Shown here piece by piece: positions 1 through 60,989 of a stretch of 64,000 nucleotides of DNA (position 1 is its first letter; each line of letters opens with the position of its first letter). Below the pieces are notes generated by a model, which did no database searches, was not told the DNA's origin, and saw only the letters and a program-made list of their open reading frames with translations. Where the stretch lies: the NCBI GenBank assembly GCA_029582265.1, contig CM055828.1:11200942-11264941 (forward strand), in the 5' to 3' direction. Made by a program: the position numbers and the translations under genes. The stretch comes from Zoroaster sp. YZ-2022 (lineage: Eukaryota > Echinodermata > Asteroidea > Forcipulatida > Zoroasteridae).

Positions 1-131
1 TCAAAAGTTTTAAGAAATTGCTCCTCTTTTGTACGTGTGGGGCTAACATTAGGATCAAGGATACAGAGGGAGTCCAGTGTATTGGCCCTGGGCCTAGAAT
101 GGGGCCAATTTAGAGTCAGACAAGCATGACA

Positions 132-395
132 AGTGTGCTTTTAACAATGTTGGTGTATTGCACCATTTAGGGGATTATTAGACCAATTCCTAATTTGTTT
201 TTCTCATGTATAAATTTACTACAGTCGCACACATAAAATTGAATACGCACTGAATACCGACTTTATGTAACGGAATGTTATTTACCTATTAGAGAAATTT
301 AGATTTAATGTTGAACAAGATAAGAAATATCGGAAAAGTGCCTATTCATCTTGTACTTTCTGTCAAATGTGAAATGTCATTACAATCACGTCAGT
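132..395. repeat. dispersed repeat A, outer left copy
   Basis: About 265 bp that recurs in the same orientation at 15978-16245, and inverted at about 44616-44872 and 60556-60797. Shared blocks include TTTTAACAATGTTG, GGGGATTATTAGACCAATTC and CATCTTGTACTTTCTGTCAA. No coding content was recognised. The two copies per arm lie about 15.9 kb apart, which fits a segmental tandem duplication. Confidence 0.8.
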
Positions 396-641
396 GGATT
401 GAGGTCATGCTTCTGGAACCACAGTTGTTGAGAAGAAAGATGTTCTTAAGTTCTACACTACTCTTCAATCTTCTGTCCGGAGTGCGACACCTGGATTTAC
501 AGAACATGGTGATGACAATACCTGTGTTGGAGAATTGTTGGCTTGTGACATCTACTGTATTTGATTTACCAAAGCTGATTCACCTAGTGAACATTGTGAT
601 TGTGTTTGGGACACTTATTATTGTTCAGTGTTGGAGCAAAG

Positions 642-766
642 GCTTTGATCCTCAAGGCCAAGGCCAAGGCTTTGACCCTCAAGGCCAAGGCTTCGACCCT
701 CAAGCCTTAAGGCTAAGGCCAAGGCCAAGGCTTAACCCTCAAGGCCAAGGCCAAGGCCCTCTAGTA
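642..766. repeat. AAGGCC-type short tandem repeat
   Basis: An irregular array built from CAAGGC / CTCAAGGCCAAGG words, with occasional TTTGACC spacers. It ends the open frame 308-769, whose C-terminus is therefore only a Gly-Gln / Phe-Asp-Pro-Gln repeat; I do not regard that frame as a gene. A second array of the same words lies at 3967-4075. The mirror copy is at 60171-60294. Confidence 0.9.
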
Positions 767-1059
767 TAAAATTACTACTAATATAAAACATGTCACATCA
801 TAACGAATCGCTCAAAGTAAGAATAAAAACTTCACGTACAAATATATGACTGAGTAGAAGTTTAGGTCTTCGTGGATACCATTTAAATATAACAAAAAGA
901 ATGGTTTGCTTCCATACTGATGCACATTAATCTAAACAGAGTATAACAAAAGGGATCTAAGAACGGCTGTTTTAACTGATGTTACCTCGTTATTATGTAA
1001 CATGGAAGTAATTTTATTTTCTGGGCCATCATGGTTAGAAATATTAGCATTACCTAAAA

Positions 1060-3598
1060 CAGACCAGACTATATTCACCCAGAATTTGTCAAAAATCTTG
1101 GACCAAAATCCACTGAATGGCTTCGAGATTACATCAGCAGTTCAGCACCTGTATCAAAGTTCAGAAAATCCCAAAAATATGGAGACATGCTAAAGTAATG
1201 GGAATTCTCAAACCGGACAAGGCCGCGAAGACCCGGGCAGCTACCGTCCAATAAGCCTACTGTGCATAATCTACAAAGTGATGGAGAGACTAATATACAA
1301 TCGTATCCAACCCATTGAGTGGATCCTCAACTCCCACCTGAGCAGCCCGTCTTCCGTACAGGACGCTGTACAACAGACCAAGTAACATTCATCACAGAAG
1401 ACATAGAGGACAACTTCCAAAAAGGTCTCAAGAACGGTGCTGTACTGGTCGATCTATCAGCAGCATATGACACGGTCTTGCCCTAAAACTACACAAAAAT
1501 CATACCTGATAAAACCTTAGTAAACTTTCTCATGACAATGATCACCTGCAGAAGCTTTACAATGACGGTTGGCGAAGAAACCAGTACAAAATGCTTCCTG
1601 AAAAACGGGATCCCGCAGGGCTTAGTGCTCGCACCGATTTAATTCAACATTTACACTGCTGACCTACCAACCACTGTCTCAAAGAAATACATCTACGCAG
1701 ATGACAAAGCACTCCTAACCTCTGCCAAAAACTTTAACAAGCTTGAAACAACACTTGGCACCGATATGGAATCCTTAAGCCGTTACCTCTAAAAACTGGA
1801 GACTCCGACTTAACATCACCAAAACTGTTTAGCAACTAGACTGGCTAACTACAAAATCAAAGTCGTTTGCAATGGCACAACCATCCCGTATGATGATTTC
1901 CCCAAGTATCTTGGTGTTACTTTGGACAGATCTCTAACATACAAAAGCCATCTCACACAGCTCGCACAGAAAGCCAACGCTCGCAACTGTCTCATTAGAC
2001 AACTAGCAGGCCTTTCCTGGGGCGCAGACTGTTACGTGTGCCTAATTCATGTAAATTAAAAGAACTAGAGCACGGCAGAAAGAAAATAAAAATCGTACGA
2101 AAACAACCAGCAATTATATTTACACAATAATTGAATAATTTATTTCATCACAAAATTAATTTAATACAATTTAAATACCAGGTAAGATAAACAAAATGGG
2201 TTTTGCACGGCTGTTCTTCCCGTCGATGGACTGTCACATCGTATGGCTGGCAGATAAGGGCTCGCTTGTTCACTGGACCGGTCTGGTCTAGGACATCTAG
2301 GAAGAGCAATGAACCGGGCGTGGGTTCAGAGCCATCTACACAGCGCAATGAACCGGGCGTGGGTTCAAAGCCATCGACTGGAAGAAGAGTAATAAGAACC
2401 AGATGGTTCAGGCCATCAACTAGAAGGAGACCGAGAACAGTGTAGACTCACTGTCTCATTGTAGGACCGAAGCACCAAGGTACTGACTGAACCATGGTGT
2501 GGCAAAGGCTGAATAAGTGACACACATCTGGTAGTGTCAGAGCAGAGCCTACGGCTGACCAGTTGGTGTTGCTCAGATGAATGTGTAGATCATGATGCAA
2601 AACCCAGTGTTTTATACAACTTGCACAAAAATACAATGCATGGTAGTTACATAATGTTTGTGCCAAATGCACTGAACAGGACAATAGCCATTTTGTGTAC
2701 AAAAATACAACGCATGTTAGTTACATAATGTTTGTGTCAAATGCACTGAACAGGACAATAGCCATTTTGTGTCCACAAAGAGCACTACTGCTTTAACCAC
2801 AGGTGCTTTAACATGTGCTTTTTAAATAAACCCAAATAGTTATAGCTGGCTCAGAAAAAAGAAAAATATGCACATGTAACACAGACTACAACGTTCTTCG
2901 AATCTCAGCAATAGCTTTAGTATACTCTGTTGCAGAGTACTGTGCACCGGTATGGGCAAGGAGCACCCACACCAGCAAGATTGACGTAGCCTTAACAACA
3001 CCATGCGCATCATCTCAGGATGTATCAGATCAACTCCCACTCAATACCTTCCAGTAGTCAGTGGAATTGCTCCTCTAGAAGTGAGACGACAGCAGCAATA
3101 CCTGTTTGCGCGACGTGCCGCTGGGTGTGACTCCCATCTGCTTCATCAACTGTTGACAAACACCAATCAAAACCCCACCACAACTGCAACTGCCATCAAG
3201 AAATCCTCTTCCATCAACAAGCCCACAAACTGCTAGAAATTAGCACCGGATCGCACCCAAAGACTTGGGCACTAAACACGTGGCGGAATATGTGACAAGA
3301 ATCAGAATCCAGGACGTGGATATTTAACTACATTTCGCCACTGCTGGGTCAAACTTAACAGACTAAGAACTGGCCATGGCCGATTTGGACATAACATGCT
3401 CCGCATGGGACTAGGTGTCAACGCTAAATGTACCTGTGGTCATGATGACCAGACTACATCACATCGTTCATGACTGTATTATTTACAGATGTGATGGAAA
3501 TTTAACTGAACTCGACCAGTCTGCATTAAACTGGATCCATAACCTAACCTTGTCATGTTAACTTTGTATGAACCATACGATAAATAAATAAATAAAGC
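1060..3598 (+). pseudogene. non-LTR retrotransposon (LINE) remnant, left arm
   Basis: These are remains of a LINE reverse transcriptase read in shifting frames. In order: an upstream block with KVMGILKPDK and SYRPISLL (about 1190-1260), a NGIPQGLVLAPI block (about 1605-1640), the catalytic YIYADD motif (about 1690), and KYLGVTLDRSLTYKSHL (about 1900). After an interruption comes the C-terminal part with VYSVAEYCAPVW (about 2920) and RRQQQY (about 3085). Family knowledge: these blocks order reverse transcriptase and its C-terminal region in Jockey/CR1-like LINEs; the exact clade is uncertain. The 3' end is a short TAAATAAATAAA tail near 3583. There are many stops, and one base is missing near 1225 compared with the right arm. 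It is split by an 851 bp element at 2031-2881. Confidence 0.88.
2031..2881. mobile_element. 851 bp terminal-inverted-repeat element inserted in the LINE
   Basis: The ends are GTTACGTGTGC and its near-complement GCACATGTAAC. CAGACT flanks both sides (2025-2030 and 2882-2887), which looks like a 6 bp target duplication (8 bp with one mismatch). LINE homology stops at one side and resumes at the other, so the insertion is clear. Inside are two small tandem repeats: a 40 bp period at about 2309-2376 and a 74 bp period at about 2645-2776. No transposase was recognised, so it is probably non-autonomous. Confidence 0.75.
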
Positions 3599-3966
3599 AG
3601 TCCACAGCACAAATCAGATGATGTTCTATCTACCCCATATAACTGTATGCAAGTTAAGTATAATTATATCTCCTTGGCCCTACAAGTACATGTATACAGA
3701 AAATTATTATAGCTTTGTTTTGGGGGAAGCAGCAAAATGTACTATCATGGTAACAAAATGTGATGCTGTAAAAGTGAAAGTGTGTCAACACACAAGTCTA
3801 GGGTGTTTTCCCTCCTCCATGGTAAAACATGATTAAATTAGATACTGCAGACTTTGCAGACAGCTGACTCCAAGTTGTATGTTTGTAGAAAAGCAAAATT
3901 TCAAACAAATTTACCTGAAAAATTCAAAAATCGATGGGCCTTGAAGAGCAAGGCCCTGAAGTTCTG

Positions 3967-4075
3967 AGGCTTTGACCCTCAAGGCCAAGGCCAAGGCTTT
4001 TGCCCTCAAGCCTTAAGGCTAAGGCCAAGGCCCTAAAATCAAGCCTTAAGGCAGCCTTAAGGCCAAGGCTCAGCA
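3967..4075. repeat. second AAGGCC-type short tandem repeat
   Basis: The same CAAGGC / CCTTAAGGC words as at 642-766, found just beyond the LINE tail. The mirror copy is at 56843-56955, slightly different in length. Confidence 0.88.
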
Positions 4076-4347
4076 TCAAGGCACTACATCACTGTTATTG
4101 CTATTGCTAATTTTCTAATTTTATACCGTCCAATTTTGAAATCTTAAAGCTCATATTTGAGACAACATTTTTTATGAAGCTGTGATTGTGTACAATATAT
4201 CAGTGGCTGTTGAAGGTGTTTTACTGACTCACTGAGTACTGAACATTTAGACAGAACGTTAATAATTACCTTGGTTATACCACATGAAACAAATGGATAG
4301 TGAATACTTTGACTTGAGATCAGAGCAGACTTGTATTCGAGTCTTTA

Positions 4348-4432
4348 AACCTCAAGTCCGAGTCCGAGTCCCCAGTGTCAAGTCTGAGTCCGAGTCCGAG
4401 TCCCCAGTGTCGAGTCCGAGTCACGAGTCACT
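4348..4432. repeat. GAGTCC hexamer array
   Basis: Tandem CGAGTC / GAGTCC hexamers with CCCAGTGT interruptions. Overlapping open frames here encode only Ser-Glu or Ser-Pro dipeptides, which indicates repeat translation and not a protein. The mirror copy is at 56492-56575. Confidence 0.9.
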
Positions 4433-5359
4433 TACAAAATTCAAACGAACAAAAGAAAATTATATACTTATGTTCAAAGTTAAGTGAAAACATACTCGAG
4501 ATATATGGGCTAGTATCTCATGTTCCAAAAATTTCATTATTCGAAAATGGTTTGAAATTTCCCAAATCTTTGGTAATAAATATTTATGTTTTGCTCAGAG
4601 GTTGTTGGGTGGCTTGGGGAAGGTTAGGACAACGTTTAGAATTGGAATTTGGCATCATCATTTGACATTTACATATTTTTACACACATTATTTTTCAACT
4701 GTGCATAATAATAATAAAAACAAATCCCTGACCAAGTCAATAACACTTTATAATTTTCATGACCCCACGCCGTTGTACATTGTACAATGCTCTCGCCTGA
4801 TTCCATTTCCCAATAATCACGATGGATTTAGCAAAATGTTTTTCCTACATTTCGGCCTGCAGCCAATAAAATATCTGGCTAGAACAACATTTAAATAATA
4901 AAACAATAATGTGTCGCTGTATAATGTCCGCAAATCAATTTACCAAATACAGCAGACGCACATGTATTTAAACTCTTTTGAAAAAAAATAATATTTGTAA
5001 CGTGTGTTAGTCTGACATCTATGGTGATACATTACTGAAAATAAAAATGAGCAGCATTTTAACAAAAGATAATTTCGACAATCCGCCATATGTCAGCCCT
5101 AATTTTGAATAGGCCTGTAGAGGGAATTCGCACAATTTATCTCCCATCCTCACTCCCAAAGAAAGTCGTCATAGTTTATTAGGTTTTGTTGTTAAAACTA
5201 CAGTCTAGCCTAAATATTGATTTGGCTTCGTCTACAGGAACATATGGGAAAGATATTACTGTCGCATCTGCACTAAGAATTTTTTTTCAAAAATGAACTC
5301 CATCACATTTTACACGAAGAATGGAAGAATGAAAAATAATAATAAAATAAAACAATAAA

Positions 5360-6860
5360 AAAACGAGGCTAATCAAAACCAGGGCGATAGAAGTAGAATA
5401 CAGTTTAAATGTAAATTGTGTCAAGGGTTAGGTCATACTAAAGACAGGTATTACAAACAACAACTTAAAGAAGGAACTCATCCAACAACTGAAGAAGGGA
5501 GATATCGAGAAGTCTTCATCGGAAATAGACCCCATCGCTTCAGGTCCATCGGTTGGGAGGCATGGAGTGGACTTAATAGGTACAGGTTTTAGAAAGCATA
5601 ATTGTGCTGGTACGTGTCCAACGATGGCAGTCCGAATTGGTGGTAAAGAGGTAAATGTCTTGTTGATACTGGTTCGATGGTGTCCACCCTCACGGAATAC
5701 TTTGGGTACATTGAAACTGACATTAAGTGTGAAGGGACGATTATTCCGCAGATGGGTATTTTGATTGTCAAAGATTCAGTTGACAAAGAACATAGAGAAC
5801 ATAAGAGGCAAGTTCCAAGCTTGCTTGGCATGAATATTTTACAACCACTTCTCAAATTGATGAATGAAACTAATGGAGATTATTTTGGAAGTCTGTTTTG
5901 TCATTGCAAAACATGGTTGTGAGTATGTAGCAGGAGACCATTGGCTTTGCTAGAGACCTCCAACAAAACATTTTTATTTCTCCTGAGTCTATTGTCACTA
6001 TTATGGCTGAAACATCTGGTAAGTTTTCTGATATGGCACTGGTCGAGCCGTTCAGAGCAAGAAGTCATCTACCACAGTTGGTATTTTAAATGCATCTACA
6101 CTTTTACAGTTTCTGTAATCTATGAATATCAGACTGTTTCAGACAGGTGTCAGCGTCGTGTACTTTCGGATTCTGCTGATGTTGCAGATATAATGATTGG
6201 CTGATCTGCATACAGTAGTGATATGGTTGCTCATTGTAATTGTAGAGTCAAAGACAAAGCCAAGCTTTGGATGTGATGTTGAAGGTTTGATTGTCTAGAC
6301 GACAGTGAAAGGGTGAATCTCGAACGGTACAAACTATGTTGGGACAAATTAAACGTTTCTCTTTGGTGAATCGTGTACTTCAAAGGGAAATCAAACTGTA
6401 TTGCCTTCATCTTTAAAACCCAACATCCTGACTAGTACATAGAAAGAACTCTTTCTTTAGTTCGTTCCTGCTGCTATTGGCGTAGCATATATGCTGAAAT
6501 TAAAAAGTGGATTGAGAATTGTGAGCAGTTCGTAGTACATAAAAAGAACTCTTTCTTTAGTTCGTTCCTGCTGCTATTGGCCTAGCATTATGCTGAAATT
6601 AAAAAGTGGATTGGGAATTGTGAGCAGTGTGTAGTTTCTAAACTTTTTAGACCTGCAGTCAGAAACCCTCTTGGTCACTTGGTTGAAAATAATCCTTAGG
6701 TTGTCATAGCCATTGACAGTACGTTTTTAGAGTATACTTCCGACAGAACAGAGAATGTTCTCGTGATTACTGATGTGTTTTCTAAGTTCATCATGCCATA
6801 CCAACAAGGGATCAGACTGCTAAAACAAAAGCATTCGTTTTGGTTAAAGAGTAGTTTTTA
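5360..6860 (+). pseudogene. Ty3/gypsy-type retroelement remnant, left arm
   Basis: A zinc-knuckle-like block CKLCQGLGHTKDRYY (about 5410; the last Cys is replaced by Tyr) is followed by an aspartic protease. The protease has CLVDTGSMVSTL at about 5660-5695 and LLGMNIL at about 5820-5840, with a frameshift just before the Asp-Thr-Gly active site. Further on, from about 6570, lies an integrase piece: WIGNCEQCVVSK, then AIDSTFLEYT and VLVITDVFSKF, the usual surroundings of the first two catalytic Asp residues. Reverse transcriptase and RNase H, which should lie between, were not found. This is a deletion derivative with no LTRs recognised. The mirror copy is at 54060-55560. Confidence 0.82.
6434..6631 (+). 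repeat. 100 bp tandem duplication in the integrase region
   Basis: Two copies with a 100 bp period, starting at AGTACAT at 6434 and 6534, each running through TTTAGTTCGTTCCTGCTGCT to GTGAGCAGT. They duplicate the stretch before the integrase Cys-x-x-Cys. Both arms carry it. Confidence 0.85.
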
Positions 6861-6864
6861 AAGT

Positions 6865-7140
6865 AGAGTCATTCCATGCCAAATCACCTAAATATTCGAA
6901 AAATTTTCAGTGACCAATTTCAGATTTTGCTAAAAAAAATACAACATACCTTTATGGGAGTAATGAACACACAACAACTTTTTGCTCCCAACACCAAGTC
7001 GTTTCCGAGATATGGCCGCCTGAAAAATATAGCCACGCCCCCTTTTTCTCCCTCCAATTTGTTTTTTTTGTCTTTTAAGATATTTTGCTGCAAATTGTTA
7101 CATGGGGTGAGTAACACCAAATCTGCTAGAATCTGATGTC
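6865..7140 (-). repeat. dispersed repeat C, copy 1
   Basis: On the minus strand this has the same block order as 14465-14740: GGGGGCGTGGC, TCTCGGAAACGACTT, TTGTTGTGTGTTCATTACTC and GGTATGTTG. The open frames across it are identical in the mirrored copy at 53779-54045. They match no family I know and look incidental. Confidence 0.75.
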
Positions 7141-7794
7141 AAAAGTAGTAAATAGGCCTATATTCTTTTCAAGTTTTGTCATTTTTGGGCCTATCTGGTA
7201 ACCACATAAGTTTTCAGATTGCTTTTATGTTTATGTGCATACAAAGTGCTAAGTACTAATTGCATACGTCTGCCCCCAAACAAGGTGGACAATTGGAAGT
7301 TTTGCTGGAGTCTGAATATAGATTCGCAGGCAAGAAGTACAAAACAACCTCCTTCTGATGGATGGTGGTTGACTGGAGTCACTACCCATGTAACTGAAAC
7401 TCTTAAAATATTTGATCCTATCTATGTATGTAAGAAAATTCAGTTTGGTATCTTTTCTCATTCATGTGTCAGACGATATTTTCAACAATGGATAGGCCTA
7501 TTTTGCTTAATATACAGAGTATTACTACTCAATTCAGAATTTCACATGGTGTCATCGCAAATAGTATTTACTTATTAATTAATAACTAAATCGTCATCTG
7601 TTGAATGTAGAAATAAATAAGCTTACTCGCCACTGTATCATGAGCTACATACTATATTTGCAACTTGGCGCTGAAAGTGCTGATATTGCATTTAGGGAGT
7701 GCTTAATATCAAACACTTCCAAGGCTCTTAAGCAGGCCCCAGACCCTCAAATCGTTTGTTCTAGATCTGCCCTGATAATGTGTATTTCGAAAAA

Positions 7795-7990
7795 TCATAA
7801 CAAGTGTTTGGGGTATGCATACCTACAGTACATATTACTGTGCCATGTATACTGTATATTGTCAAATCATTACTAAGTGTTTGGGGTATGCATACCACAG
7901 TACATGGTACTGTGTCATGTATACTGTATATTAAGTCAAATACCCTTTATATGAAAATATCGTCTGACCATAAAGGAGAAAAGATACCAA
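7795..7990. repeat. dispersed repeat D with tandem GGTATGCATACC palindromes
   Basis: Two near-identical units of about 71 bp, each with AAGTGTTTGGGG followed by the perfect 12 bp palindrome GGTATGCATACC, then an AGTACAT..ACTGTATATT block. They are followed by AATATCGTCTGACCAT and GAGAAAAGATACCAAACTG. A single, diverged copy lies at 14352-14515, next to the hairpin unit. The mirror copy is at about 52900-53120. Confidence 0.72.
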
Positions 7991-8329
7991 ACTGAATGTT
8001 CTTACATACATAGATAGGATACAACATTTTAAGATGTAAGAGTTTCAGTTATAATTGATTAAGATGATATGATGATATACATACTTTAACTAGAGCTTAA
8101 GTGTTTGTTTGAACAAACACAGGGTGTTCAAGTCAACTTCCGGTTCAATCAAATTATCAACGATGATGTAAATATTATATTGTGCAATGGTTTATCATCT
8201 TTTATAATAACAATATCAATTTCATATTCAAAAGATATATCAATTTATGCGTTAGAATGTGTTGAATTTGAACTTCCTGTTTGGACAGCAAGTAAAGGTC
8301 AGATTAGGTGGTTTGAAGGTCATATATGA

Positions 8330-9090
8330 CCTCCTCATGATTATGAAAAATAACAAATTTGTCAACTTATACATCAAATTGAAGCTATGAGATATGACCT
8401 TTTAAAATTTGTAAAATCGTTACTTCGTGTGCCACTAATTGGACCATTGGTACAAGCATTTATGGTAAACTCATTTCACAAGAATTACAAGCTATTAATG
8501 TAAGGAATTCAATTGTGTTTTTTTTTCTAATAGGTCATTTAGTTCTTGAGATATTGGCTGTTGAACTTGGAAATGTTGTGAGAGATTTAAGCAATACATT
8601 AGAAATTAACAAGTGTGACTTGAACACAATGTTTTTATTTTAAATATTGACACTAGCCCAACACATGCTCTTCAAAAAACCATGCTAGATGATAAATCAA
8701 CATTAAAATCACTCATATGAAAATAGTTTGCCAGATCAACCTATTCAGCGTTATTATGGGCATAAAGTCACAAAGTTGATTTAGGATAGAAGGGGACTAC
8801 ATATATAGTAACTGGGTTAAACTTGGCTGCAAATTCAAAGAGCAGGAAGTGTGGGTTAAATTGTTTGGGGAGTTGGGAGTTACTGAAGACAATGAAGCAT
8901 GGAAGACCATATAAATATTTCCCTTTTTCCTTTCCTTCAGCTAATTAGCCTTTCATTAGAAAATGTTTATAACTACTACATGATAAAGTTGGAGAAAGCT
9001 TGCATCCGTGCTTTCCATCTTCCACTGCCCCCGCAGAAGAGTTTTTGTCAAAAGTAAATAATTCCCAATTCAAACAAAATTAAATGTAAT
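8330..9090. other. no recognisable gene or named repeat
   Basis: AT-rich sequence with many stops in all frames. Nothing beyond its mirror image at about 51830-52580 was seen. Confidence 0.6.
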
Positions 9091-9095
9091 TATAT

Positions 9096-10510
9096 CCACT
9101 GGATCAAATCTGATAATTGGTTGCCCTTTTCACTTTGTTTATGGAAAAACCTTTCAATTTTAGATTTAAATGAAGCCAACATTGGTATTTATCTCTTGGT
9201 ATTAAGTCTTGTACAAAAATAAATTTAATCTTTATTTATAATATACTTCACTTTCATAACAAAAATATAATGATATAGTGACACTGTAATCAAGCATCTC
9301 CTTATTGTGACATGCTTATAAACTGTCTTTTGTTTTCACCCTATACTGCAAATAATTAAAAAATAATGTATAACATTTGAAAACAAATTCTATATTGATT
9401 TTTACATTTTCAAGGTTGTACAAATGATTGCGGTGTAAAACTGTCTGTAGCTGCATCCATACTACAGAATTACAACCTAAAGATCAGATGCCATTTGTAC
9501 ATAAATTGTTAGACATTGAAATAATCAAAGAGTTGTATGGGTGCTTGTAAATTGCTAATAAAGCAATGAAATACATATTTATTTTAACTGTCTGTTGGGT
9601 TTCATGACTTGACTTTGTGGTTACACATTTCCCCCCCACAATCAATTGAAAACCACTTTTGTTGTCCTGTTTAACCTACTTGTAACTAATCTAGAAATGA
9701 GTGTACATGGTCTTACACATGTAACAAGTGAAATTACTTCAGTGTAAATGAACCCAACCATGATCCTTTGTTGACAAGAAAACAGAATATATATCCACTG
9801 GATCAAATCTGATAATTGGTTGCCCTTTTCACTTTGTTTATGGAAAAACCTTTCAATTTTGGATTTAAATGAAGGCAACATTGGTATTTATCTCTTGGTA
9901 TTAAGTCTTGTACAAAAATAAATTTAATCTTTATTTATAATATACTTCACTTTCAGGTTAAGTTTATAACAAAAATATAATGATACATTGACAATGATAG
10001 CGACACTGCAATCAAGCATCTCCTTATTGTGACATGCTTATAAACTGTCTTTGTTTTCACCTATACTGCAAATAATTAAAACATAATTATACAATTTGAA
10101 AACAAATTCTATTGATTTTACATTTTCAAGGTTGTACACATGATTGGCAAAATGTCTGTAGCTGCATCCATACTACAGAATTACAACCTAAAGATCAGAT
10201 GCCATTTTGTACATAAATTGTTAGACATTGAAATAATCAAAGAGTTGTATGGGTGCTTGTAAATTGCTAATAAAACAATGAAATACATATTTATTTTAAC
10301 TGTCTGTTGGGTTTCATGACTTGACTTTGTGGGTTACACACTTCCCTCCCCAACAATCAATTGAAACCACTTTGTTGACCTGTTTATAACCCATACTTGT
10401 AACCAATCCCCAGAAATGAGTGTACATGGTCTTACACATGCAACAAGTGAAATCTGACTTCAGTGTAAATGAACCCAACCATGATCCTTTTGTTGACAAG
10501 AAACAGAATC
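9096..10510. repeat. about 700 bp tandem duplication
   Basis: Two direct copies. Unit 1 starts at TCCACTGGATCAAATCTGAT near 9099 and unit 2 at the same words near 9792. Each runs through GTCTGTTGGGTTTCATGACT to the AACCCAACCATGATCC block. The copies differ by small indels. Frames crossing the junction are not convincing genes. The mirror pair is at about 50395-51810. Confidence 0.88.
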
Positions 10511-10619
10511 AATCTGCATTTAAAATAAATGTACACTGGCTGTATGTACGATTTAGTGAGTTCAGAATAGGTGACATTCAGGGGTTGTCATTGGAATCGG
10601 TAATTTTGGAATAAAATGC

Positions 10620-10985
10620 CTTCCCCTCCCCCAAGTTCTTAGTGATGGCATGTACTGCCCAGTAGCGGAACAAGTTACCGCCGGGCCGGGGGCAGAGGCC
10701 GGGCTCGCCCCAGGCATCATTCCCTAACCACACGTGATTTCGAGAGACCTCATGATTACACTTCATGTTTCTCAGGGGGCTTAAAATAAAGGGGCCGGTT
10801 GATTTGTAAGTTCCAGCTCGGGCTGGTCCCCAACTACCCCCACCACCCCACCCCCCCCCCCTCCAGAACAGAATGTTTCAAAATATAAAAAAAATAAAAT
10901 CTTTTGGGAGGGTCCAGGCCACCCCTCCGGACCGGGGACGCCCCCCAGTCCCCTGGACGGTCTGCCACTGGCAGTACTGCCCACT
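10620..10985. repeat. GC-rich, G/C-run repeat patch
   Basis: A sharp rise in GC inside AT-rich DNA, with C runs (10842-10862) and words such as CCGCCGGGCCGGGGG. In the right arm (about 49900-50290) the same patch is G-rich on the + strand. Overlapping frames there give Gly/Trp-rich peptides with no family resemblance. It is probably part of an unnamed transposon. Confidence 0.65.
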
Positions 10986-10999
10986 GGTGATGAACCAAC

Positions 11000-12108
11000 A
11001 CATTTGTTTTCTAAAATTATTTGGTCTATCATTGCAGCACTATTGAATCCAAGAACTAGAAGGGAGCCCCAAGCTTATTCGGCAATATTCTTATTGACAC
11101 ACCCAATTTTACTTTAACTACATTTTGTGAGGATGTTGGGTCCATCAACATCAAACAAGAAATTCCTCAGTACTACTTTTGTTCTAACATGTTAAAGAAA
11201 TTCCCAAAAAGACCTAGATATGTCTTGAGGTCCTAAAAATCAATTATCTTAAGTCCATAGGATAAGTCCATATAACATAATTTGAATCATACATTTAACT
11301 CCTTTGATGAATGGATAAACTTAAATACTGGCCATTGGATCAAAGTTACACAGACTCTGACACCTTGTAGCAGTAGCACAAATGGATACTGATGATCTGA
11401 AAATAACTAACTAATGTAAAACAAATATTAAATGTTTTCAAAGAGGGACGAAGAATAATGGGTCATATAACAAACACACATAACTTAGAATGCCCTCATA
11501 TGTTATTATCAGGATGATGGATTGATGTAACTTCAGAAAACTTATGCAACTTTAGAAAAATGATCCTTCAGAACAATGCCTTTAAGTTGGTTTTACAATG
11601 GAATAGAAAGTTACATGTGACGTCTTCTTCCTCCATGATGTGACTGTTCATTATCTCAATAAATGTGCTGATATTTGTTTCTGGACTACTTTAGTGAGAA
11701 AAATTAAGTGCTAGTATCAAGTAAACTGCAATGCATCCATCACCACACAAGATATAAGCACTACTAGTATTATGAGTAACTATAGACACTATAGTGTAGC
11801 TAAATTAACCGGATGTCAACCCGTACACATGCCAGTAAATATTCAGTAATACAACATATTGTGTACAGGGTCGAGTTATTACCAAATGAGTATGAGTTGG
11901 TAATAGTACGAGTTGGCACGCATACGAGTTGACCTCCGTTTTCTACTGGGGAAAGAATACAACATTGTGGATAAAGTTTAAAAGAATTGCTTTTTGAAAA
12001 TAAAAATCACAATCTTCAATGTAGGTTGGTGGGGTCATGTGAGTGGATCTGGGGCAGTCAGGAGGAATGCAATCATCCACACATCCACACACACACAGTC
12101 TTGTGCAT
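11000..12108. other. AT-rich spacer without a recognised feature
   Basis: No open frame or repeat that I could name. A short cluster of GAGTTGG / ACGAGTTG words lies near 11870-11935. Confidence 0.55.
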
Positions 12109-12291
12109 GGTGTAAACCGAGGACACCGTTTGACATTCTGTTGTTCCCCTCTTTGTTTCCCTTGTGTTGTTGGACTTTAACTTTTTGAGGCTTCTCCCAT
12201 TAGATTTGTACACGAAACATACCGACCAGACACCGTGCGCAAAACCGAGGACATATATTGTTCCTTTTGTTATATGTCCTCGGTTTACACT
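12109..12291. mobile_element. 183 bp MITE in a CA/TG microsatellite, left arm
   Basis: The ends are GGTGTAAACCGAGGACA and its complement. An extra inverted copy of the terminal word forms a hairpin at about 12243-12287 (AAACCGAGGACATAT stem). It sits beside a CA run at 12300-12335. The third copy of this region, near 63870, has only the microsatellite, which is the expected empty site. Confidence 0.72.
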
Positions 12292-12299
12292 ATAAACAC

Positions 12300-12335
12300 G
12301 TACACACACGTACACACACACACACACACACACAT
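12300..12335. repeat. CA microsatellite
   Basis: A run of CACACA broken by CGTA. The mirrored TG run is at 48385-48411. Confidence 0.9.
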
Positions 12336-12339
12336 TTAC

Positions 12340-48597: not shown

Positions 48598-49899
48598 ATG
48601 CACAAGACTGTGTGTGTGTGTGGATGTGTGGATGATTGCATTCCTCCTGACTGCCCTATGATCCACTCACATGACCCCACCAACCTACATTGAAGATTGT
48701 GATTTTTATTTTCAAAAAGCAATTCTTTTTAAACTTTATCCACAATGTTGTATTCTTTCCCAGTGAAAACAGGTCAACTCGTATGCGTGCCAACTCGTAC
48801 TATTACCAACTCATACTCATTTTGGTCAACTCGACCCGTACAAATATTTATTACTGAATATTTACTGGCATGTGTACGGGTTGACATCCGGTTAATTTAG
48901 CTACACTATAGTGTCTATAGTTACTCATAATACTAGTAGTGCTTATATCTTGTGTGGTGATGGATGCATTGCAGTTTACTTGATACTAGCACTTAATTTT
49001 CTCACTAAAGTAGTCCAGAAACAAATATCAGCACATTTATTGAGATAATGAAACAGTCACATCATGGAGGAAGGAAGACGTCACATGTAACTTTCTATTC
49101 CATTGTAAAACCTAACTTAAAGGCATTGTTCTGAAGGGATCATTTTTCTAAAGTTGCATAAGTTTTCTGAAGTTACATCAATCCATCATCCTGATAATAA
49201 CATATGAGGGCATTCTAAGTTATGTGTGTTTGTTAGCACGACCCATTATTCTTCGTCCCTCTTTGAAAACATTTAATATTGTTTTTACATGATTAGTTTA
49301 TATTTCAGATCATCGGTATCCATTTGTGCTACTGCTACAAGGTGTGTCAGAGTCTGTGTAACTTTGTGATCCAATGGCCAGCATTTTAAGTTTATCCATT
49401 CATCAAAGGAGTTAATGTATGATTCAAATTATGTTATATGGACTTATCCTATGGACTTAAGATAATTGATTTTTAGGACCTCAAGACATATCTAGGTCTT
49501 TTTAGGAATTTCTTTAACATGTTAGAACAAAAGTAGTACTGAGGAATTCTTATTATATGTTTGACTGGACCCAAACATCCTCACAAAATGTAGTTATTAA
49601 GCAATATCTGTTGGTGATCTAGTAAAATGTATATTGCCGACAGTGAATCCCTGGCAGTTGGGCCATATAAACATAGTAAACATAACCCCCAATCTTCATT
49701 GCATGGGTGTGTCAGCCTTGGAATACCTTTTGCCAGATCACCCAATTAAAGCACTAGTATAAGGGGGCCCCTTATACTTGTATTGCTTGTTTGCCCCTCC
49801 CCTTCCCTAGTTCTTGGATTCAATAGTGCTGCAATGATAGACCAAATAATTTTAGAAAACAAATGTGTTGGTTCATCACCAGTGGCAGTACCAGTGGCA

Positions 49900-50394: not shown

Positions 50395-51810
50395 TTGATT
50401 CTGTTTTCTTGTCAACAAAGGATCATGGTTGGGTTCATTTACACTGAAGTCATTTCACTTGTTGCATGTGTAAGACCATGTACACTCATTTCTAGATTGG
50501 TTACAAGTATGGGTTATAAACAGGTCAACAAAGTGGTTTCAATTGATTGTTGGGGAGGGAAGTGTGTAACCACAAAAGTCAAGTCATGAAACCCAACAGA
50601 CAGTTAAAATAAATATGTATTTCATTGTTTTATTAGCAATTTACAAGCACCCATACAACTCTTTGATTATTTCAATGTCTAACAATTTATGTACAAAATG
50701 GCATCTGATCTTTAGGTTGTAATTCTGTAGTATGGATGCAGCTACAGACATTTTGCCAATCATGTGTACAACCTTGAAAATGTAAAAATCAATGTAGAAT
50801 TTGTTTTCAAATTGTATAAATTATGTTTTAATTATTTGCAGTATAGGTGAAAACAAAGACAGTTTATAAGCATGTCACAATAAGGAGATGCTTGATTACA
50901 GTGTCGCTATCATTGTCAATGTATCATTATATTTTTGTTATAAACTTAACCTGAAAGTGAAGTATATTATAAATAAAGATTAAATTTATTTTTGTACAAG
51001 ACTTAATACCAAGAGATAAATACCAATGTTGCCTTCATTTAAATCCAAAATTGAAAGGTTTTTCCATAAACAAAGTGAAAAGGGCAACCAATTATCAGAT
51101 TTGATCCAGTGGATATATATTCTGTTTTCTTGTCAACAAAGGATCATGGTTGGGTTCATTTACACTGAAGTAATTTCACTTGTTACATGTGTAAGACCAT
51201 GTACACTCATTTCTAGATTGGTTACAAGTAGGTTAAACAGGTCAACAAAGTGGTTTCAATTGATTGTGGGGGAGGGAAATGTGTAACCACAAAAGTCAAG
51301 TCATGAAACCCAACAGACAGTTAAAATAAATATGTATTTCATTGCTTTATTAGCAATTTACAAGCACCCATACAACTCTTTGATTATTTCAATGTCTAAC
51401 AATTTATGTACAAAATGGCATCTGATCTTTAGGTTGTAATTCTGTAGTATGGATGCAGCTACAGACAGTTTGCCAATCATTTGTACAACCTTGAAAATGT
51501 AAAAATCAATATAGAATTTGTTTTCAAATTTTATACATTATTTTTTAATTATTTGCAGTATAGGTGAAAACAAAGACAGTTTATAAGCATGTCACAATAA
51601 GGAGATGCTTGATTACAGTGTCACTATATCATTATATTTTTGTTATGAAAGTGAAGTATATTATAAATAAAGATTAAATTTATTTTTGTACAAGACTTAA
51701 TACCAAGAGATAAATACCAATGTTGGCTTCATTTAAATCTAAAATTGAAAGGTTTTTCCATAAACAAAGTGAAAAGGGCAACCAATTATCAGATTTGATC
51801 CAGTGGATAT
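50395..51810. repeat. about 700 bp tandem duplication, right arm
   Basis: Mirror of 9096-10510, with the two units in direct orientation to each other. Confidence 0.88.
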
Positions 51811-54059
51811 AATTACATTTAATTTTGTTTGAATTGGGAATTATTTACTTTTTGACAAAAACTCTTCTGCGGGGGGCAGTGGAAGATGGAAAGCACGGAT
51901 GCAAGCTTTCTTCCAACTTTATCATGTAGTAGTTATAAGCTTGTTTTCTAATGAAAGGCTAATTAGCTGAAGGAAAGGAAAGGGGAAATATTTATATGGT
52001 CTTCCATGCTTCATTGTCTTCAGTAACTCCCAACTCCCCCAAACAATTTAACCCACACTTCCTGCTCTTTGAATTTGCAGCCAAGTTTAACCCAGTTACT
52101 ATACATGTAGTCCCCTTCTATCCTAAATCAACTTTGTGACTTTATGCCCATAATAACGCTGAATAGGTTGATCTGGCAAACTATTTTCATATGAGTGATT
52201 TTTAATGTTGATTTATCATCTAGCATGGTTTTTGAAGAGCATGTGTTGGGCTAGTGTCAATATTTAAAATAAAAAACATTGTGTTCCAAGTCACACTTGT
52301 TAATTTCTAATGTATTGCTTAAATCTCACAACATTTCCAAGTTCAACAGCCAATATCTCAAGAACTAAATGACCTATTAGAAAACAAAAAACACAATTGA
52401 ATTCCTTACATTAATAGCTTGTAATTCTTGTGAAATGAGTTACCATAAATGCTTGCCAATGGTCCAATTAGTGGCACACGAAGTAACGATTTTTACAAAT
52501 TTTAAAAGGTCATATCTCATAGCTTCAATTTGATGTATAAGTTGACAAATTTGTTATTTTTTCATAATCATGAGGAGGTCATATATGACCTTCAAACCAC
52601 CTAATCTGACCTTTACTTGCTGTCCAAACAGGAAGTTCAAATTCAACACATTCTAACGCAAAATTGATATATCTTTTGAATATGAAATTGATATTGTTAT
52701 TATAAAAGATGATAAACCATTGCACAATATAATATTTACATCATCGTTGATAATTTGATTGAACCGGAAGTTGACTTGAACACCCTGTGTTTGTTCAAAC
52801 AAACACTTAAGCTCTAGTTAAAGTATGTATATCATCATATCATCTTAATCAATTATAACTGAAACTCTTACATCTTAAAATGTTGTATCCTATCTATGTA
52901 TGTAAGAACATTCAGTTTGGTATCTTTTCTCCTTTATGGTCAGACGATATTTTCATATAAAGGGTATTTGACTTAATATACAGTATACATGACACAGTAC
53001 CATGTACTGTAGGTATGCATACCCCAAACACTTGTAATGATTTGGCTTAATATACAGTATACATGGCACAGTAATATGTACTGTAGGTATGCATACCCCA
53101 AACACTTGTTATGATTTTTCGAAATACACATTATCAAGGGCAGATCTAGAACAAACGATTTGAGGGTCTGGGGCCTGCTTAAGGGCCTTGGAAGTGTTTG
53201 ATTTTAAGAACTCCCTAAATGCAATATCAGCACTTTCAGCGCTAAGTTGCAAATAATTATAGTATGTAGCTCATGATACAGTGGCGAGTAACCTTATTAA
53301 TTTCTACATTCAACAGATGACGATTTAGTTATTAATTAATAAGTAAATACTATTTGCGATGACACCATGTGAAATTCTGAATTGAGTAGTAATACTCTGT
53401 ATATTAAGCAAAATAGGCCTATCCATTATTTGAAAATATCGTCTGACCATGAATGAGAAAAGATACCAAACTGAATTTTCTTACATACATAGATAGGATC
53501 AAATATTTTAAGAGTTTCAGTTACATGGGTAGTGACCCACCCGGTCAACCATCCATCAGAAGGAGGTTGTTTTTGTACTTCTTGCCTGCGAATCTATATT
53601 CAGACTCCAGCAAAACTTCCAATTGTCCACCTTGTTTGGGGGCAGACGTATGCAATTAGTACTTAGCACTTTGTATGCACATAAACATAAAAGCAATCTG
53701 AAAACTTATGTGGTTACCAGATAGGCCCAAAAATGACAAAACTTGAAAAGAATATAGGCCTATTTACTACTTTTGACATCAGATTCTAGCAGATTTGGTG
53801 TTACTCACCCCATGTAACAATTTGCAGCAAAATATCTTAAAAGACAAAAAAAACAAATTGGAGGGAGAAAAAGGGGGCGTGGCTATATTTTTCAGGCGGC
53901 CATATCTCGGAAACGACTTGGTGTTGGGAGCAAAAAGTTGTTGTGTGTTCATTACTCCCATAAAGGTATGTTGTATTTTTTTTAGCAAAATCTGAAATTG
54001 GTCACTGAAAATTTTTCGAATATTTAGGTGATTTGGCATGGAATGACTCTACTTTAAAA

Positions 54060-55560
54060 ACTACTCTTTAACCAAAACGAATGCTTTTGTTTTAGCAGTC
54101 TGATCCCTTGTTGGTATGGCATGATGAACTTAGAAAACACATCAGTAATCACGAGAACATTCTCTGTTCTGTCGGAAGTATACTCTAAAAACGTACTGTC
54201 AATGGCTATGACAACCTAAGGATTATTTTCAACCAAGTGACCAAGAGGGTTTCTGACTGCAGGTCTAAAAAGTTTAGAAACTACACACTGCTCACAATTC
54301 CCAATCCACTTTTTAATTTCAGCATAATGCTAGGCCAATAGCAGCAGGAACGAACTAAAGAAAGAGTTCTTTTTATGTACTACGAACTGCTCACAATTCT
54401 CAATCCACTTTTTAATTTCAGCATATATGCTACGCCAATAGCAGCAGGAACGAACTAAAGAAAGAGTTCTTTCTATGTACTAGTCAGGATGTTGGGTTTT
54501 AAAGATGAAGGCAATACAGTTTGATTTCCCTTTGAAGTACACGATTCACCAAAGAGAAACGTTTAATTTGTCCCAACATAGTTTGTACCGTTCGAGATTC
54601 ACCCTTTCACTGTCGTCTAGACAATCAAACCTTCAACATCACTTCCAAAGCTTGGCTTTGTCTTTGACTCTACAATTACAATGAGCAACCATATCACTAC
54701 TGTATGCAGATCAGCCAATCATTATATCTGCAACATCAGCAGAATCCGAAAGTACACGACGCTGACACCTGTCTGAAACAGTCTGATATTCATAGATTAC
54801 AGAAACTGTAAAAGTGTAGATGCATTTAAAATACCAACTGTGGTAGATGACTTCTTGCTCTGAACGGCTCGACCAGTGCCATATCAGAAAACTTACCAGA
54901 TGTTTCAGCCATAATAGTGACAATAGACTCAGGAGAAATAAAAATGTTTTGTTGGAGGTCTCTCTAGCAAAGCCAATGGTCTCCTGCTACATACTCACAA
55001 CCATGTTTTGCAATGACAAAACAGACTTCCAAAATAATCTCCATTAGTTTCATTCATCAATTTGAGAAGTGGTTGTAAAATATTCATGCCAAGCAAGCTT
55101 GGAACTTGCCTCTTATGTTCTCTATGTTCTTTGTCAACTGAATCTTTGACAATCAAAATACCCATCTGCGGAATAATCGTCCCTTCACACTTAATGTCAG
55201 TTTCAATGTACCCAAAGTATTCCGTGAGGGTGGACACCATCGAACCAGTATCAACAAGACATTTACCTCTTTACCACCAATTCGGACTGCCATCGTTGGA
55301 CACGTACCAGCACAATTATGCTTTCTAAAACCTGTACCTATTAAGTCCACTCCATGCCTCCCAACCGATGGACCTGAAGCGATGGGGTCTATTTCCGATG
55401 AAGACTTCTCGATATCTCCCTTCTTCAGTTGTTGGATGAGTTCCTTCTTTAAGTTGTTGTTTGTAATACCTGTCTTTAGTATGACCTAACCCTTGACACA
55501 ATTTACATTTAAACTGTATTCTACTTCTATCGCCCTGGTTTTGATTAGCCTCGTTTTTTT
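54060..55560 (-). pseudogene. Ty3/gypsy-type retroelement remnant, right arm
   Basis: Mirror of 5360-6860 with the same zinc-knuckle, protease (Asp-Thr-Gly, in the frame 54995-55240) and integrase pieces, the same frameshifts, the same 100 bp duplication and the same missing reverse transcriptase. Identical lesions in both arms mean the decay preceded the arm duplication, or that the arms are alleles. Confidence 0.82.
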
Positions 55561-57331
55561 ATTGTTTTATTTTATTATTATTTTTTCATTCTTCCATTCT
55601 TCGTGTAAAATGTGATGGAGTTCATTTTTGAAAAAAAAAAATTCTTAGTGCAGATGCGACAGTAATATCTTTCCCATATGTTCCTGTAGACGAAGCCAAA
55701 TCAATATTTAGGCTAGACTGTAGTTTTAACAACAAAACCTAATAAACTATGACGACTTTCTTTGGGAGTGAGGATGGGAGATAAATTGTGCGAATTCCCT
55801 CTACAGGCCTATTCAAAATTAGGGCTGACATATGGCGGATTGTCGAAATTATCTTTTGTTAAAATGCTGCTCATTTTTATTTTCAGTAATGTATCACCAT
55901 AGATGTCAGACTAACACACGTTACAAATATTATTTTTTTTCAAAAGAGTTTAAATACATGTGCGTCTGCTGTATTTGGTAAATTGATTTGCGGACATTAT
56001 ACAGCGACACATTATTGTTTTATTATTTAAATGTTGTTCTAGCCAGATATTTTATTGGCTGCAGGCCGAAATGTAGGAAAAACATTTTGCTAAATCCATC
56101 GTGATTATTGGGAAATGGAATCAGGCGAGAGCATTGTACAATGTACAACGGCGTGGGGTCATGAAAATTATAAAGTGTTCTTGACTTGGTCAGGGATTTG
56201 TTTTTATTATTATTATGCACAGTTGAAAAATAATGTGTGTAAAAATATGTAAATGTCAAATGATGATGCCAAATTCCAATTCTAAACGTTGTCCTAACCT
56301 TCCCCAAGCCACCCAACAACCTCTGAGCAAAACATAAATATTTATTACCAAAGATTTGGGAAATTTCAAACCATTTTCGAATAATGAAATTTTTGGAACA
56401 TGAGATACTAGCCCATATATCTCGAGTATGTTTTCACTTAACTTTGAACATAAGTATATAATTTTCTTTTGTTCGTTTGAATTTTGTAAGTGACTCGTGA
56501 CTCGGACTCGACACTGGGGACTCGGACTCGGACTCAGACTTGACACTGGGGACTCGGACTCGGACTTGAGGTTTAAAGACTCGAATACAAGTCTGCTCTG
56601 ATCTCAAGTCAAAGTATTCACTATCCATTTGTTTCATGTGGTATAACCAAGGTAATTATTAACGTTCTGTCTAAATGTTCAGTACTCAGTGAGTCAGTAA
56701 AACACCTTCAACAGCCACTGATATATTGTACACAATCACAGCTTCATAAAAAATGTTGTCTCAAATATGAGCTTTAAGATTTCAAAATTGGACGGTATAA
56801 AATTAGAAAATTAGCAATAGCAATAACAGTGATGTAGTGCCTTGATGCTGAGCCTTGGCCTTAAGGCTGCCTTAAGGCTTGATTTTAGGGCCTTGGCCTT
56901 AGCCTTAAGGCTTGAGGGCAAAAGCCTTGGCTTTGGCCTTGAGGGTCAAAGCCTTGCAACTTCAGGGCCTTGCTCTTCAAGGCCCATCGATTTTTGAATT
57001 TTTCAGGTAAATTTGTTTGAAATTTTGCTTTTCTACAAACATACAACTTGGAGTCAGCTGTCTGCAAAGTCTGCAGTATCTAATTTAATCATGTTTTACC
57101 ATGGAGGAGGGAAAACACCCTAGACTTGTGTGTTGACACACTTTCACTTTTACAGCATCACATTTTGTTACCATGATAGTACATTTTGCTGCTTCCCCCA
57201 AAACAAAGCTATAATAATTTTCTGTATACATGTACTTGTAGGGCCAAGGAGATATAATTATACTTAACTTGCATACAGTTATATGGGGTAGATAGAACAT
57301 CATCTGATTTGTGCTGTGGACTGCTTTATTT

Positions 57332-59870
57332 ATTTATTTATCGTATGGTTCATACAAAGTTAACATGACAAGGTTAGGTTATGGATCCAGTTTAATGCAG
57401 ACTGGTCGAGTTCAGTTAAATTTCCATCACATCTGTAAATAATACAGTCATGAACGATGTGATGTAGTCTGGTCATCATGACCACAGGTACATTTAGCGT
57501 TGACACCTAGTCCCATGCGGAGCATGTTATGTCCAAATCGGCCATGGCCAGTTCTTAGTCTGTTAAGTTTGACCCAGCAGTGGCGAAATGTAGTTAAATA
57601 TCCACGTCCTGGATTCTGATTCTTGTCACATATTCCGCCACGTGTTTAGTGCCCAAGTCTTTGGGTGCGATCCGGTGCTAATTTCTAGCAGTTTGTGGGC
57701 TTGTTGATGGAAAGGATTTCTTGATGGCAGTTGCAGTTGTGGTGGGGGTTTTTGATTGGTGTTTGTCAACAGTTGATGAAGCAGATGGGAGTCACACCCA
57801 GCGGCACGTCGCGCAAGAGCAAGGTATTGCTGCTGTCGTCTCACTTCATGAGGAGCAATTCCACTGACTACTGGAAGGTATTGAGTGGGAGTTGATCTGA
57901 TACATCCTGAGATGATGCGCATGGTGTTGTTAAGGGCTACGTCAATCTTGCTGGTGTGGGTGCTCCTTGCCCATACCGGTGCACAGTACTCTGCAACAGA
58001 GTATACTAAAGCTATTGCTGAGATTCGAAGAACGTTGTAGTCTGTGTTACATGTGCATATTTTTCTTTTTTCTGAGCCAGCTATAACTATTTGGGTTTAT
58101 TTAAAAAGCACATGTTAAAGCACCTGTGGTTAAAGCAGTAGTGCTCTTTGTGGACACAAAATGGCTATTGTCCTGTTCAGTGCATTTGACACAAATATTA
58201 TGTAACTAACATGCGTTGTATTTTTGTACACAAAATGGCTATTGTCCTGTTCAGTGCATTTGGCACAAACATTATGTAACTACCATGCATTGTATTTTTG
58301 TGCAAGTTGTATAAAACACTGGGTTTTGCATCATGATCTACACATTCATCTGAGCAACACCAACTGGTCAGCCGTAGGCTCTGCTCTGACACTACCAGAT
58401 GTGTGTCACTTATTCAGCCTTTGCCACACCATGGTTCAGTCAGTACCTTGGTGCTTCGGCCCTACAATGAGACAGTGAGTCTACACTGTTCTCTGTCTCC
58501 TTCTAGTTGATGGCCTGAACCATCCGGTTCTTATTACTCTTCTTCCAGTCGATGGCTTTGAACCCACGCCCGGTTCATTGCGCTGTGTAGATGGCTCTGA
58601 ACCCACGCCCGGTTCATTGCTCTTCCTAGATGTCCTAGACCAGACCGGTCCAGTGAACAAGCGAGCCCTTATCTGCCAGCCATACGATGTGACAGTCCAT
58701 CGACGGGAAGAACAGCCGTGCAAAACCCATTTTGTTTATCTTACCTGGTATTTAAATTGTATTAAATTAATTTTGTGATGAAATAAATTATTCAATTATT
58801 GTGTAAATATAATTGCTGGTTGTTTTCGTACGATTTTTATTTTCTTTCTGCCGTGCTCTAGTTCTTTTAATTTACATGAATTAGGCACACGTAACAGTCT
58901 GCGCCCCAGGAAAGGCCTGCTAGTTGTCTAATGAGACAGTTGCGAGCGTTGGCTTTCTGTGCGAGCTGTGTGAGATGGCTTTTGTATGTTAGAGATCTGT
59001 CCAAAGTAACACCAAGATACTTGGGGAAATCATCATACGGGATGGTTGTGCCATTGCAAACGACTTTGATTTTGTAGTTAGCCAGTCTAGTTGCTAAACA
59101 GTTTTGGTGATGTTAAGTCGGAGTCTCCAGTTTTTAGAGGTAACGGCTTAAGGATTCCATATCGGTGCCAAGTGTTGTTTCAAGCTTGTTAAAGTTTTTG
59201 GCAGAGGTTAGGAGTGCTTTGTCATCTGCGTAGATGTATTTCTTTGAGACAGTGGTTGGTAGGTCAGCAGTGTAAATGTTGAATTAAATCGGTGCGAGCA
59301 CTAAGCCCTGCGGGATCCCGTTTTTCAGGAAGCATTTTGTACTGGTTTCTTCGCCAACCGTCATTGTAAAGCTTCTGCAGGTGATCATTGTCATGAGAAA
59401 GTTTACTAAGGTTTTATCAGGTATGATTTTTGTGTAGTTTTAGGGCAAGACCGTGTCATATGCTGCTGATAGATCGACCAGTACAGCACCGTTCTTGAGA
59501 CCTTTTTGGAAGTTGTCCTCTATGTCTTCTGTGATGAATGTTACTTGGTCTGTTGTACAGCGTCCTGTACGGAAGACGGGCTGCTCAGGTGGGAGTTGAG
59601 GATCCACTCAATGGGTTGGATACGATTGTATATTAGTCTCTCCATCACTTTGTAGATTATGCACAGTAGGCTTATTGGACGGTAGCTGCCCGGGTCTTCG
59701 GCGGCCTTGTCCGGTTTGAGAATTCCCATTACTTTAGCATGTCTCCATATTTTTGGGATTTTCTGAACTTTGATACAGGTGCTGAACTGCTGATGTAATC
59801 TCGAAGCCATTCAGTGGATTTTGGTCCAAGATTTTTGACAAATTCTGGGTGAATATAGTCTGGTCTGTTT
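57332..59870 (-). pseudogene. non-LTR retrotransposon (LINE) remnant, right arm
   Basis: Mirror of 1060-3598. The N-terminal reverse transcriptase block is open at 59541-59810 (KVMGILKPDK, GSYRPISLL, VMERLIYNRI), where the left arm has lost one base. The 3' tail is at about 57332-57345. The inserted 851 bp element is at 58045-58895. Confidence 0.88.
58045..58895. mobile_element. 851 bp inverted-repeat element in the LINE, right arm
   Basis: Mirror of 2031-2881, flanked by AGTCTG on both sides (58039-58044 and 58896-58901), which is the complement of the left-arm target duplication. Confidence 0.75.
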
Positions 59871-60989
59871 TAGGTAATGCTAATATTTCTAACCATGATG
59901 GCCCAGAAAATAAAATTACTTCCATGTTACATAATAACGAGGTAACATCAGTTAAAAACAGCCGTTCTTAGATCCCCTTTTGTTATACTCTGTTTAGATT
60001 AATGTGCATCAGTATGGAAGCAAACCATTCTTTTTGTTATATTTAAATGGTATCCACGAAGACCTAAACTTCTACTCAGTCATATATTTGTACGTGAAGT
60101 TTTTATTCTTACTTTGAGCGATTCGTTATGATGTGACATGTTTTATATTAGTAGTAATTTTATACTAGAGGGCCTTGGCCTTGGCCTTGAGGGTTAAGCC
60201 TTGGCCTTGGCCTTAGCCTTAAGGCTTGAGGGTCGAAGCCTTGGCCTTGAGGGTCAAAGCCTTGGCCTTGGCCTTGAGGATCAAAGCCTTTGCTCCAACA
60301 CTGAACAATAATAAGTGTCCCAAACACAATCACAATGTTCACTAGGTGAATCAGCTTTGGTAAATCAAATACAGTAGATGTCACAAGCCAACAATTCTCC
60401 AACACAGGTATTGTCATCACCATGTTCTGTAAATCCAGGTGTCGCACTCGGACAGAAGATTGAAGAGTAGTGTAGAACTTAAGAACATCTTTCTTCTCAA
60501 CAACTGTGGTTCCAGAAGCATGACCTCAATCCACTGACGTGATTGTAATGACATTTCACATTTGACAGAAAGTACAAGATGAATAGGCACTTTTCCGATA
60601 TTTCTTATCTTGTTCAACATTAAATCTAAATTTCTCTAATAGGTAAATAACATTCCGTTACATAAAGTCGGTATTCAGTGCGTATTCAATTTTATGTGTG
60701 CGACTGTAGTAAATTTATACATGAGAAAAACAAATTAGGAATTGGTCTAATAATCCCCTAAATGGTGCAATACACCAACATTGTTAAAAGCACACTTGTC
60801 ATGCTTGTCTGACTCTAAATTGGCCCCATTCTAGGCCCAGGGCCAATACACTGGACTCCCTCTGTATCCTTGATCCTAATGTTAGCCCCACACGTACAAA
60901 AGAGGAGCAATTTCTTAAAACTTTTGATCTGCTAATTGGCATAAAGTTCACTATTGTGTGATCGGTAATTTTGGTGAAATTTTATTTTT

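Follow-up and report, generated by a model that had tools for sequence, protein, structure and literature searches.

The window analysed here is the whole stretch of 64,000 nucleotides at C13:11200942-11264941, in an assembly of 1,001,958,528 bases and 616 sequences, and it is made up of parts of two contigs, here called A and B, which are separated by a scaffolding gap of exactly 500 N (28551-29050), the sole N run in the window. The left arm (1-28550, + strand) is the inner part of contig A and an inverted, apparently redundant copy of contig B; the right arm (31694-60928, - strand) is a clean copy lying inside contig B; and the "spacer" (29051-31693, + strand) is the start of contig B, is without counterpart in contig A, and is present on scaffold C4. 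The original prediction that the features of the first half recur inverted and collinear (1-28550 against 31694-60927) is borne out by a BLASTN comparison of the window with itself, in which one single match joins 1-11064 to 60927-49800 at 98.2% identity and another joins 11115-28550 to 49596-31694 at 89.1%. The inverted match is continued on the - strand over 60929-64000, where the part up to 62141 pairs with -1207 to 0 and the part starting at 62774 with -1209 and leftward (negative coordinates being C13 positions left of window base 1), and the 0.63 kb between 62141 and 62774 is the stretch that contig B has and contig A lacks.

The spacer carries two matches to PF13843, which we take to be the piggyBac transposase domain (30202-30381, E 2.4e-10; 30374-30553, E 3.3e-12), and a zf-Tnp_2 zinc finger below the cut-off (31133-31489); judged by these domain matches, it appears to hold a decayed relic of a piggyBac-type transposase, with no evident part in a palindrome. 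The Pfam scan of 167 of the 316 reading-frame pieces of at least 55 aa, hand-picked from contig B, returned fragments of piggyBac, reverse-transcriptase and F5/8 C domains and two marginal matches, to rve (0.01) and to an adenovirus family (0.0058), and no intact gene was found in these unspliced pieces; Rfam gave no match at the gathering threshold. A 21-bp repeat forms two mutually inverted arrays in each arm, of about 16-17 copies and about 2.1 kb apart, at 24760-25107 and 27217-27573 in the left arm and at 32710-33075 and 35243-35589 in the right, a pair that presumably resembles the ends of a foldback-type element. A direct repeat of about 2.4 kb is found in contig B at 46430-48773 and 61186-64000, and its second copy is split by an insert of about 0.63 kb, absent from contig A, in which a pure (TAA)40 run occupies 62140-62260. 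Two further pieces, L (20001-21500) and R (54600-56100), are separated by about 15 kb within the arm and are found as a pair, with order and orientation kept and a spacing of 11-21 kb, in at least seven other places (C4 near 38.20, 38.60, 38.98, 39.34 and 58.45 Mb, C1 near 30.51 Mb and C17 near 6.20 Mb), and in a different order near C1:3.19 Mb; the pair marks a large dispersed repeat unit that is most frequent on C4 among the best 40 candidates scored per search.

Since the inverted match reaches both the first base of the window, which is the window edge, and 28550, which is the final base ahead of the N gap, neither limit is a natural arm end. On the parent scaffold the left side of the match spans -27392 to 28550 and the right side 31694 to 81211, and the full arms come to about 56 kb and about 50 kb, respectively. 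Contig A as a whole occupies -27404 to 28550 (C13:11173538-11229491; 55,954 bp), and its other end meets a second gap of exactly 500 N (-27904 to -27405); the original prediction noted, aptly, that the left junction is not shown to be bridged by any read. Contig B is gap-free from 29051 to at least 104000, the end of the stretch examined. Between -27392/81211 and 28550/31694 the two contigs correspond with order and orientation reversed. Of the 55,954 bases of contig A, 48,200 (86%) lie in five inverted collinear matches of at least 3 kb, and both ends of contig A fall within contig B. The uncovered rest consists mainly of two A-only stretches, one of about 6.3 kb (-22069 to -15729) and one of about 1.3 kb (at -5544), both flanked by otherwise collinear sequence. 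The longer of these, with 45% GC, lies in a (CT)n tract, has an A-rich end, and adjoins the divergent far-left end of contig A; it is retroelement-like in outline, and none of the 18 reading-frame pieces scanned, from 22 of at least 80 aa, gave a Pfam match, so that its assignment to the LINEs, suggested at first by the A-rich end at the (CT)n tract, is only a guess. All four gaps examined in 324 kb (194 kb of C13 and 130 kb of C4) are of 500 N each. Passages of PMC10320752 and PMC12879420 describe 500-N joins made in the wake of Hi-C scaffolding by 3D-DNA, and we infer that a tool of this type was used for the present assembly.

A third copy of the sequence is found on C4, where 39148433-39180404 matches contig B from 61139 to 29052 at 98.35% over 32 kb in one piece. 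The match starts at base 4 of a C4 contig lying after a 500-N gap and ends at base 2 of contig B, and the C4 contig and contig B therefore overlap end to end; a segmental duplication shared by C4 and C13 is another reading of this overlap. C4 runs on for at least 47 kb past the start of contig B, and the longest matches in that continuation (477 columns to contig A, 875 to contig B and 246 to the contig left of A) are all repeats, which indicates that the sequence following the "spacer" in an uninterrupted copy is not contig A. Identity between the arms cannot by itself separate a palindrome from a false duplication, and the third copy can.

The differences between the arms are unevenly spread, with 0.48 substitutions per 100 aligned sites in 1-10400, 5.5 in 10401-19400, 13.6 in 19401-24300 and 2.7 in 24301-28550, and with identities of 82-100% per 500-base bin; the first 2 kb of the left arm show 0 substitutions and five 1-bp indels. 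The inner part of contig A (+ strand) can be divided into a cleaner part (1-10400, 0.5% substitutions against the right arm) and a noisy end (10401-28550, worst at 19401-24300). A joint three-way alignment of the left arm, the right arm and the C4 copy (27,999 ungapped columns) assigns 1269 private substitutions to the left arm, 30 to the right arm and 124 to C4, with all three differing at 7, and the indel events in the same alignment number 585 in the left arm (387 deletions, 198 insertions), 51 in the right arm (9 and 42) and 128 in C4 (94 and 34). By region, left-private and right-private substitutions are 43 and 6 (1-10400), 471 and 13 (10401-19400), 652 and 5 (19401-24300), and 103 and 6 (24301-28550), which over 10401-28550 makes 1226 against 24. 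Alleles or paralogues would share their changes about equally, and the skew to the left speaks against both. The original prediction had put the choice as one of two loci or two alleles; its artefact side stands, but the polarisation places nearly all of the difference on one side and in a noise-like form.

The same direction is obtained when repeats inside the window serve as outgroups. With 10 of 11 sets pooled and the same counts in three MAFFT modes, 242 substitutions are left-private and 9 right-private; the second comparison of two pairs, each with another outgroup, accounts for 27 of the 242, and without this repetition the figures are 215 and 9. The set kept out of the pool (46074/53855) was badly bounded and gave 2 against 2, and one small set (44611/60551) is opposite, with 4 right-private and 1 left-private. 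Substitutions with clean flanks in all three sequences are few in these comparisons (14 left-private, 3 of them counted twice, and 0 right-private), which pointed to clustering. Pairwise BLAST was set aside, since with the left arm as query the outgroup agreed with the left 95 times and with the right 60 times (p 0.006), whereas with the right arm as query the counts were 203 to 9, 55 to 9 and 132 to 0 in favour of the right; pairwise alignment favours the query among dense indels, so these opposite answers were judged query-biased and the joint alignments were relied on. A first hint of excess changes on the left arm came from a tandem duplication of about 720 bp present in both arms (9091-10509 and 50398-51811), the copies of which are 97.7% alike in the right arm and 93.9% in the left.

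The left-arm differences are clustered in patches with indels. The isolated fraction of the arm-to-arm substitutions is 0.09-0.33 in the four regions, and in six control repeat pairs inside contig B it is 0.69, 0.46, 0.33, 0.88, 0.34 and 0.13, the low values belonging to short or the most diverged pairs; indels per substitution (0.21-0.81 in the arms, 0.06-0.67 in the controls) overlap and do not separate the groups. In 19401-24300 homopolymers of at least 6 number 49 in the left arm, 8 in the right and 6 in C4, and when independent noise was simulated at roughly the observed rates, 500 runs yielded 8.3 on average and never more than 20; no such gain is seen in the other three regions (left 11, 14 and 19; right 13, 20 and 18; C4 12, 15 and 20). 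In the same region 446 of the 661 left-arm substitutions equal a neighbouring left-arm base, the corresponding count for the right arm being 195. Of the right-arm runs of at least 4, summed over the four regions, 116 are shortened and 12 lengthened in the left arm; when left-arm runs are taken as the reference, 57 are longer and 33 shorter in the right arm. The right arm has an open stretch that encodes part of an F5/8 type C domain (72% identity to protein P0001), and in the left arm stops and frameshifts interrupt it. A codon-position comparison of the arms (25 rows listed) gave no clear frame with changes kept to third positions, and would be uninformative if the arm differences are noise. 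CpG sites are a weak guide to the origin of the changes, because transitions are not raised at CpG relative to other C/G in 10401-19400 (0.042/0.048) and 19401-24300 (0.083/0.092), where most changes fall, and yet all changes taken together are somewhat commoner at CpG in three of the four regions (0.0086/0.0066, 0.219/0.175 and 0.058/0.035), the exception being 10401-19400 (0.066/0.073). We know of no mutational process that alters one arm only in this manner; unpolished long-read sequence produces such a one-sided texture.

Other contig ends show noise of this kind. In contig A the noise begins at about 10.4 kb and lasts to the right end, and the far-left 5 kb of the contig (-27404 to -22404) show 4.5-8.3% substitutions against contig B, in a two-sequence comparison that does not assign the changed side, with no homopolymer gain at that end (left 12, right 21); the cleaner part between the noisy ends has 0-2%. 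The C4 copy is noisier near its contig start, the first region of the four holding 68 of the 124 substitutions private to C4, and the first 2 kb or so of contig B have 26 gaps against 4 in C4. A second pair of similar stretches lies on C4 (39098001-39133817 and 39192620-39228000), in direct orientation, 92.4% alike and on either side of a 500-N gap, with a clustered texture that is in part similar to that of the left arm. This pair is probably another false duplication, and the assembly fault is therefore probably not unique to the present locus; gene counts, heterozygosity and repeat ages taken from this part of the assembly should be handled with care, since C4 shows a similar pair.

Taken together, the structure is very probably an assembly artefact, a false inverted duplication, whichever haplotype contig A represents, as differences confined to one arm and resembling base-caller noise suggest. 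The original prediction had offered an exceptional palindrome or a textbook misassembly; the former finds no support, and the latter is favoured by the gaps on both sides of contig A, by the position of its ends inside contig B and by the one-sided noise. Contig A would be a redundant assembly of the locus of contig B, poorly covered at low read depth and probably from the other haplotype; the assembler may have left it uncollapsed as its end noise, perhaps with real allelic differences, made it look distinct, and a Hi-C-type scaffolder would then have set it beside contig B, reversed, with a fixed gap of 500 N on each side. That contig A is probably the other haplotype, with noisy ends, is suggested by the 6.3 kb and 1.3 kb that it carries and contig B lacks; these stretches point to the other haplotype and the noise to poor coverage of the contig, and both can hold. 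Against an artefact stand the cleaner core of contig A, still about 0.5% different from contig B, and the position of the locus in a dispersed family of related sequence, where a real duplication is plausible; the core difference, together with the A-only and B-only stretches, implies that contig A is more than a noisy second version of one molecule.

A homotype version of the same artefact, in which contig A represents the haplotype of contig B, was built solely out of error-rich reads, and owes its extra stretches to chimeric joins or to errors in repeat number, holds a minority share of the probability given to the artefact. It would account for the absence of substitutions in the first 2 kb, and the 6.3-kb stretch, in its (CT)n tract beside the divergent far-left end and with 18 of its 22 pieces giving no Pfam match, could be a false join; nevertheless, allelic structural differences are a better explanation of the 6.3-kb and 1.3-kb stretches, the flanks of which are otherwise collinear. 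Far less probable is a genuine large palindrome with arms of at least 50 kb and a near-identical core, the left arm of which was badly sequenced or polished. The arms are indeed collinear over about 50 kb and the core is about 99.5% identical, long near-identical arms are difficult to polish, and the duplicated unit, as a member of a dispersed large repeat family, could stem from a fold-back duplication; nevertheless, gaps cut contig A off on both sides and its ends lie in contig B, arms of equal depth should not have noise on one side only, and beyond the start of contig B the C4 sequence matches contig A at most in repeats of fewer than 480 columns. Two ordinary and accurate alleles joined head to head, a plain heterotype duplication, would be in keeping with the gap between the copies and with a divergence that is uneven along the arm, but are rendered highly improbable by the 1269 of 1299 arm-private substitutions that fall on the left, where about equal numbers on both arms would be expected. 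Hardly credible is a fold-back read artefact, in which one molecule was read on both strands, the second at lower quality, since, although such reads are documented (PMC12870357, in part) and would yield one clean and one noisy inverted copy, the copies here lie in different contigs with a gap between, contig A carries 6.3 kb and 1.3 kb that contig B lacks, and a contig of 56 kb that is clean in the middle and divergent towards both ends is unlike the second strand of one read.

Among known systems, the ampliconic palindromes of sex chromosomes, as passages on the human Y (PMC3723533) and on willow (PMC7023750) portray them, share with the window long inverted arms and a short spacer. Those of the human Y have arms more than 99.9% alike (PMC3723533, in the passage concerned), and arms kept more than 99% alike by ongoing gene conversion, a contiguous centre and functional genes duplicated in the arms would be expected of such palindromes. 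The arms here are 89% alike over 11115-28550, with the differences on one side, the centre is a scaffold gap, and on C4 the sequence runs on elsewhere; as to genes, the pieces scanned from contig B yielded the domain fragments listed above. Fold-back artefact reads, as presented in part of PMC12870357, are alike in that an inverted copy arises from sequencing and not from the genome, and unlike in that contigs A and B do not lie within one contig or read and differ by large insertions. The closest likeness is to the false duplications of genome assemblies, of which passages of PMC9516828 and PMC8081667 distinguish heterotype and homotype kinds, the former marked by half read depth over the copy and the latter by very low depth. 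As in those passages, an assembly gap separates the copies on one scaffold (500 N at 28551-29050, with another at the far end of contig A), and a smaller contig aligns within a larger one, both ends of contig A falling in contig B and 86% of it being covered by matches of at least 3 kb. The copies also appear to differ in consensus quality, the mark of the homotype kind, to judge by the 1269 against 30 private substitutions, their clustering and the neighbour-copy signature, and the A-only stretches of 6.3 and 1.3 kb hint at the haplotype-specific one-copy k-mers that mark the heterotype kind; sequencing errors, proposed here for contig A, are among the causes given there. The present copy is inverted, an orientation of which the passages concerned make no mention (PMC9516828 has 0 occurrences of the word "inverted"). 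Unlike the false duplications described in these passages, the case of contigs A and B seems to combine allelic insertions with noisy contig ends.
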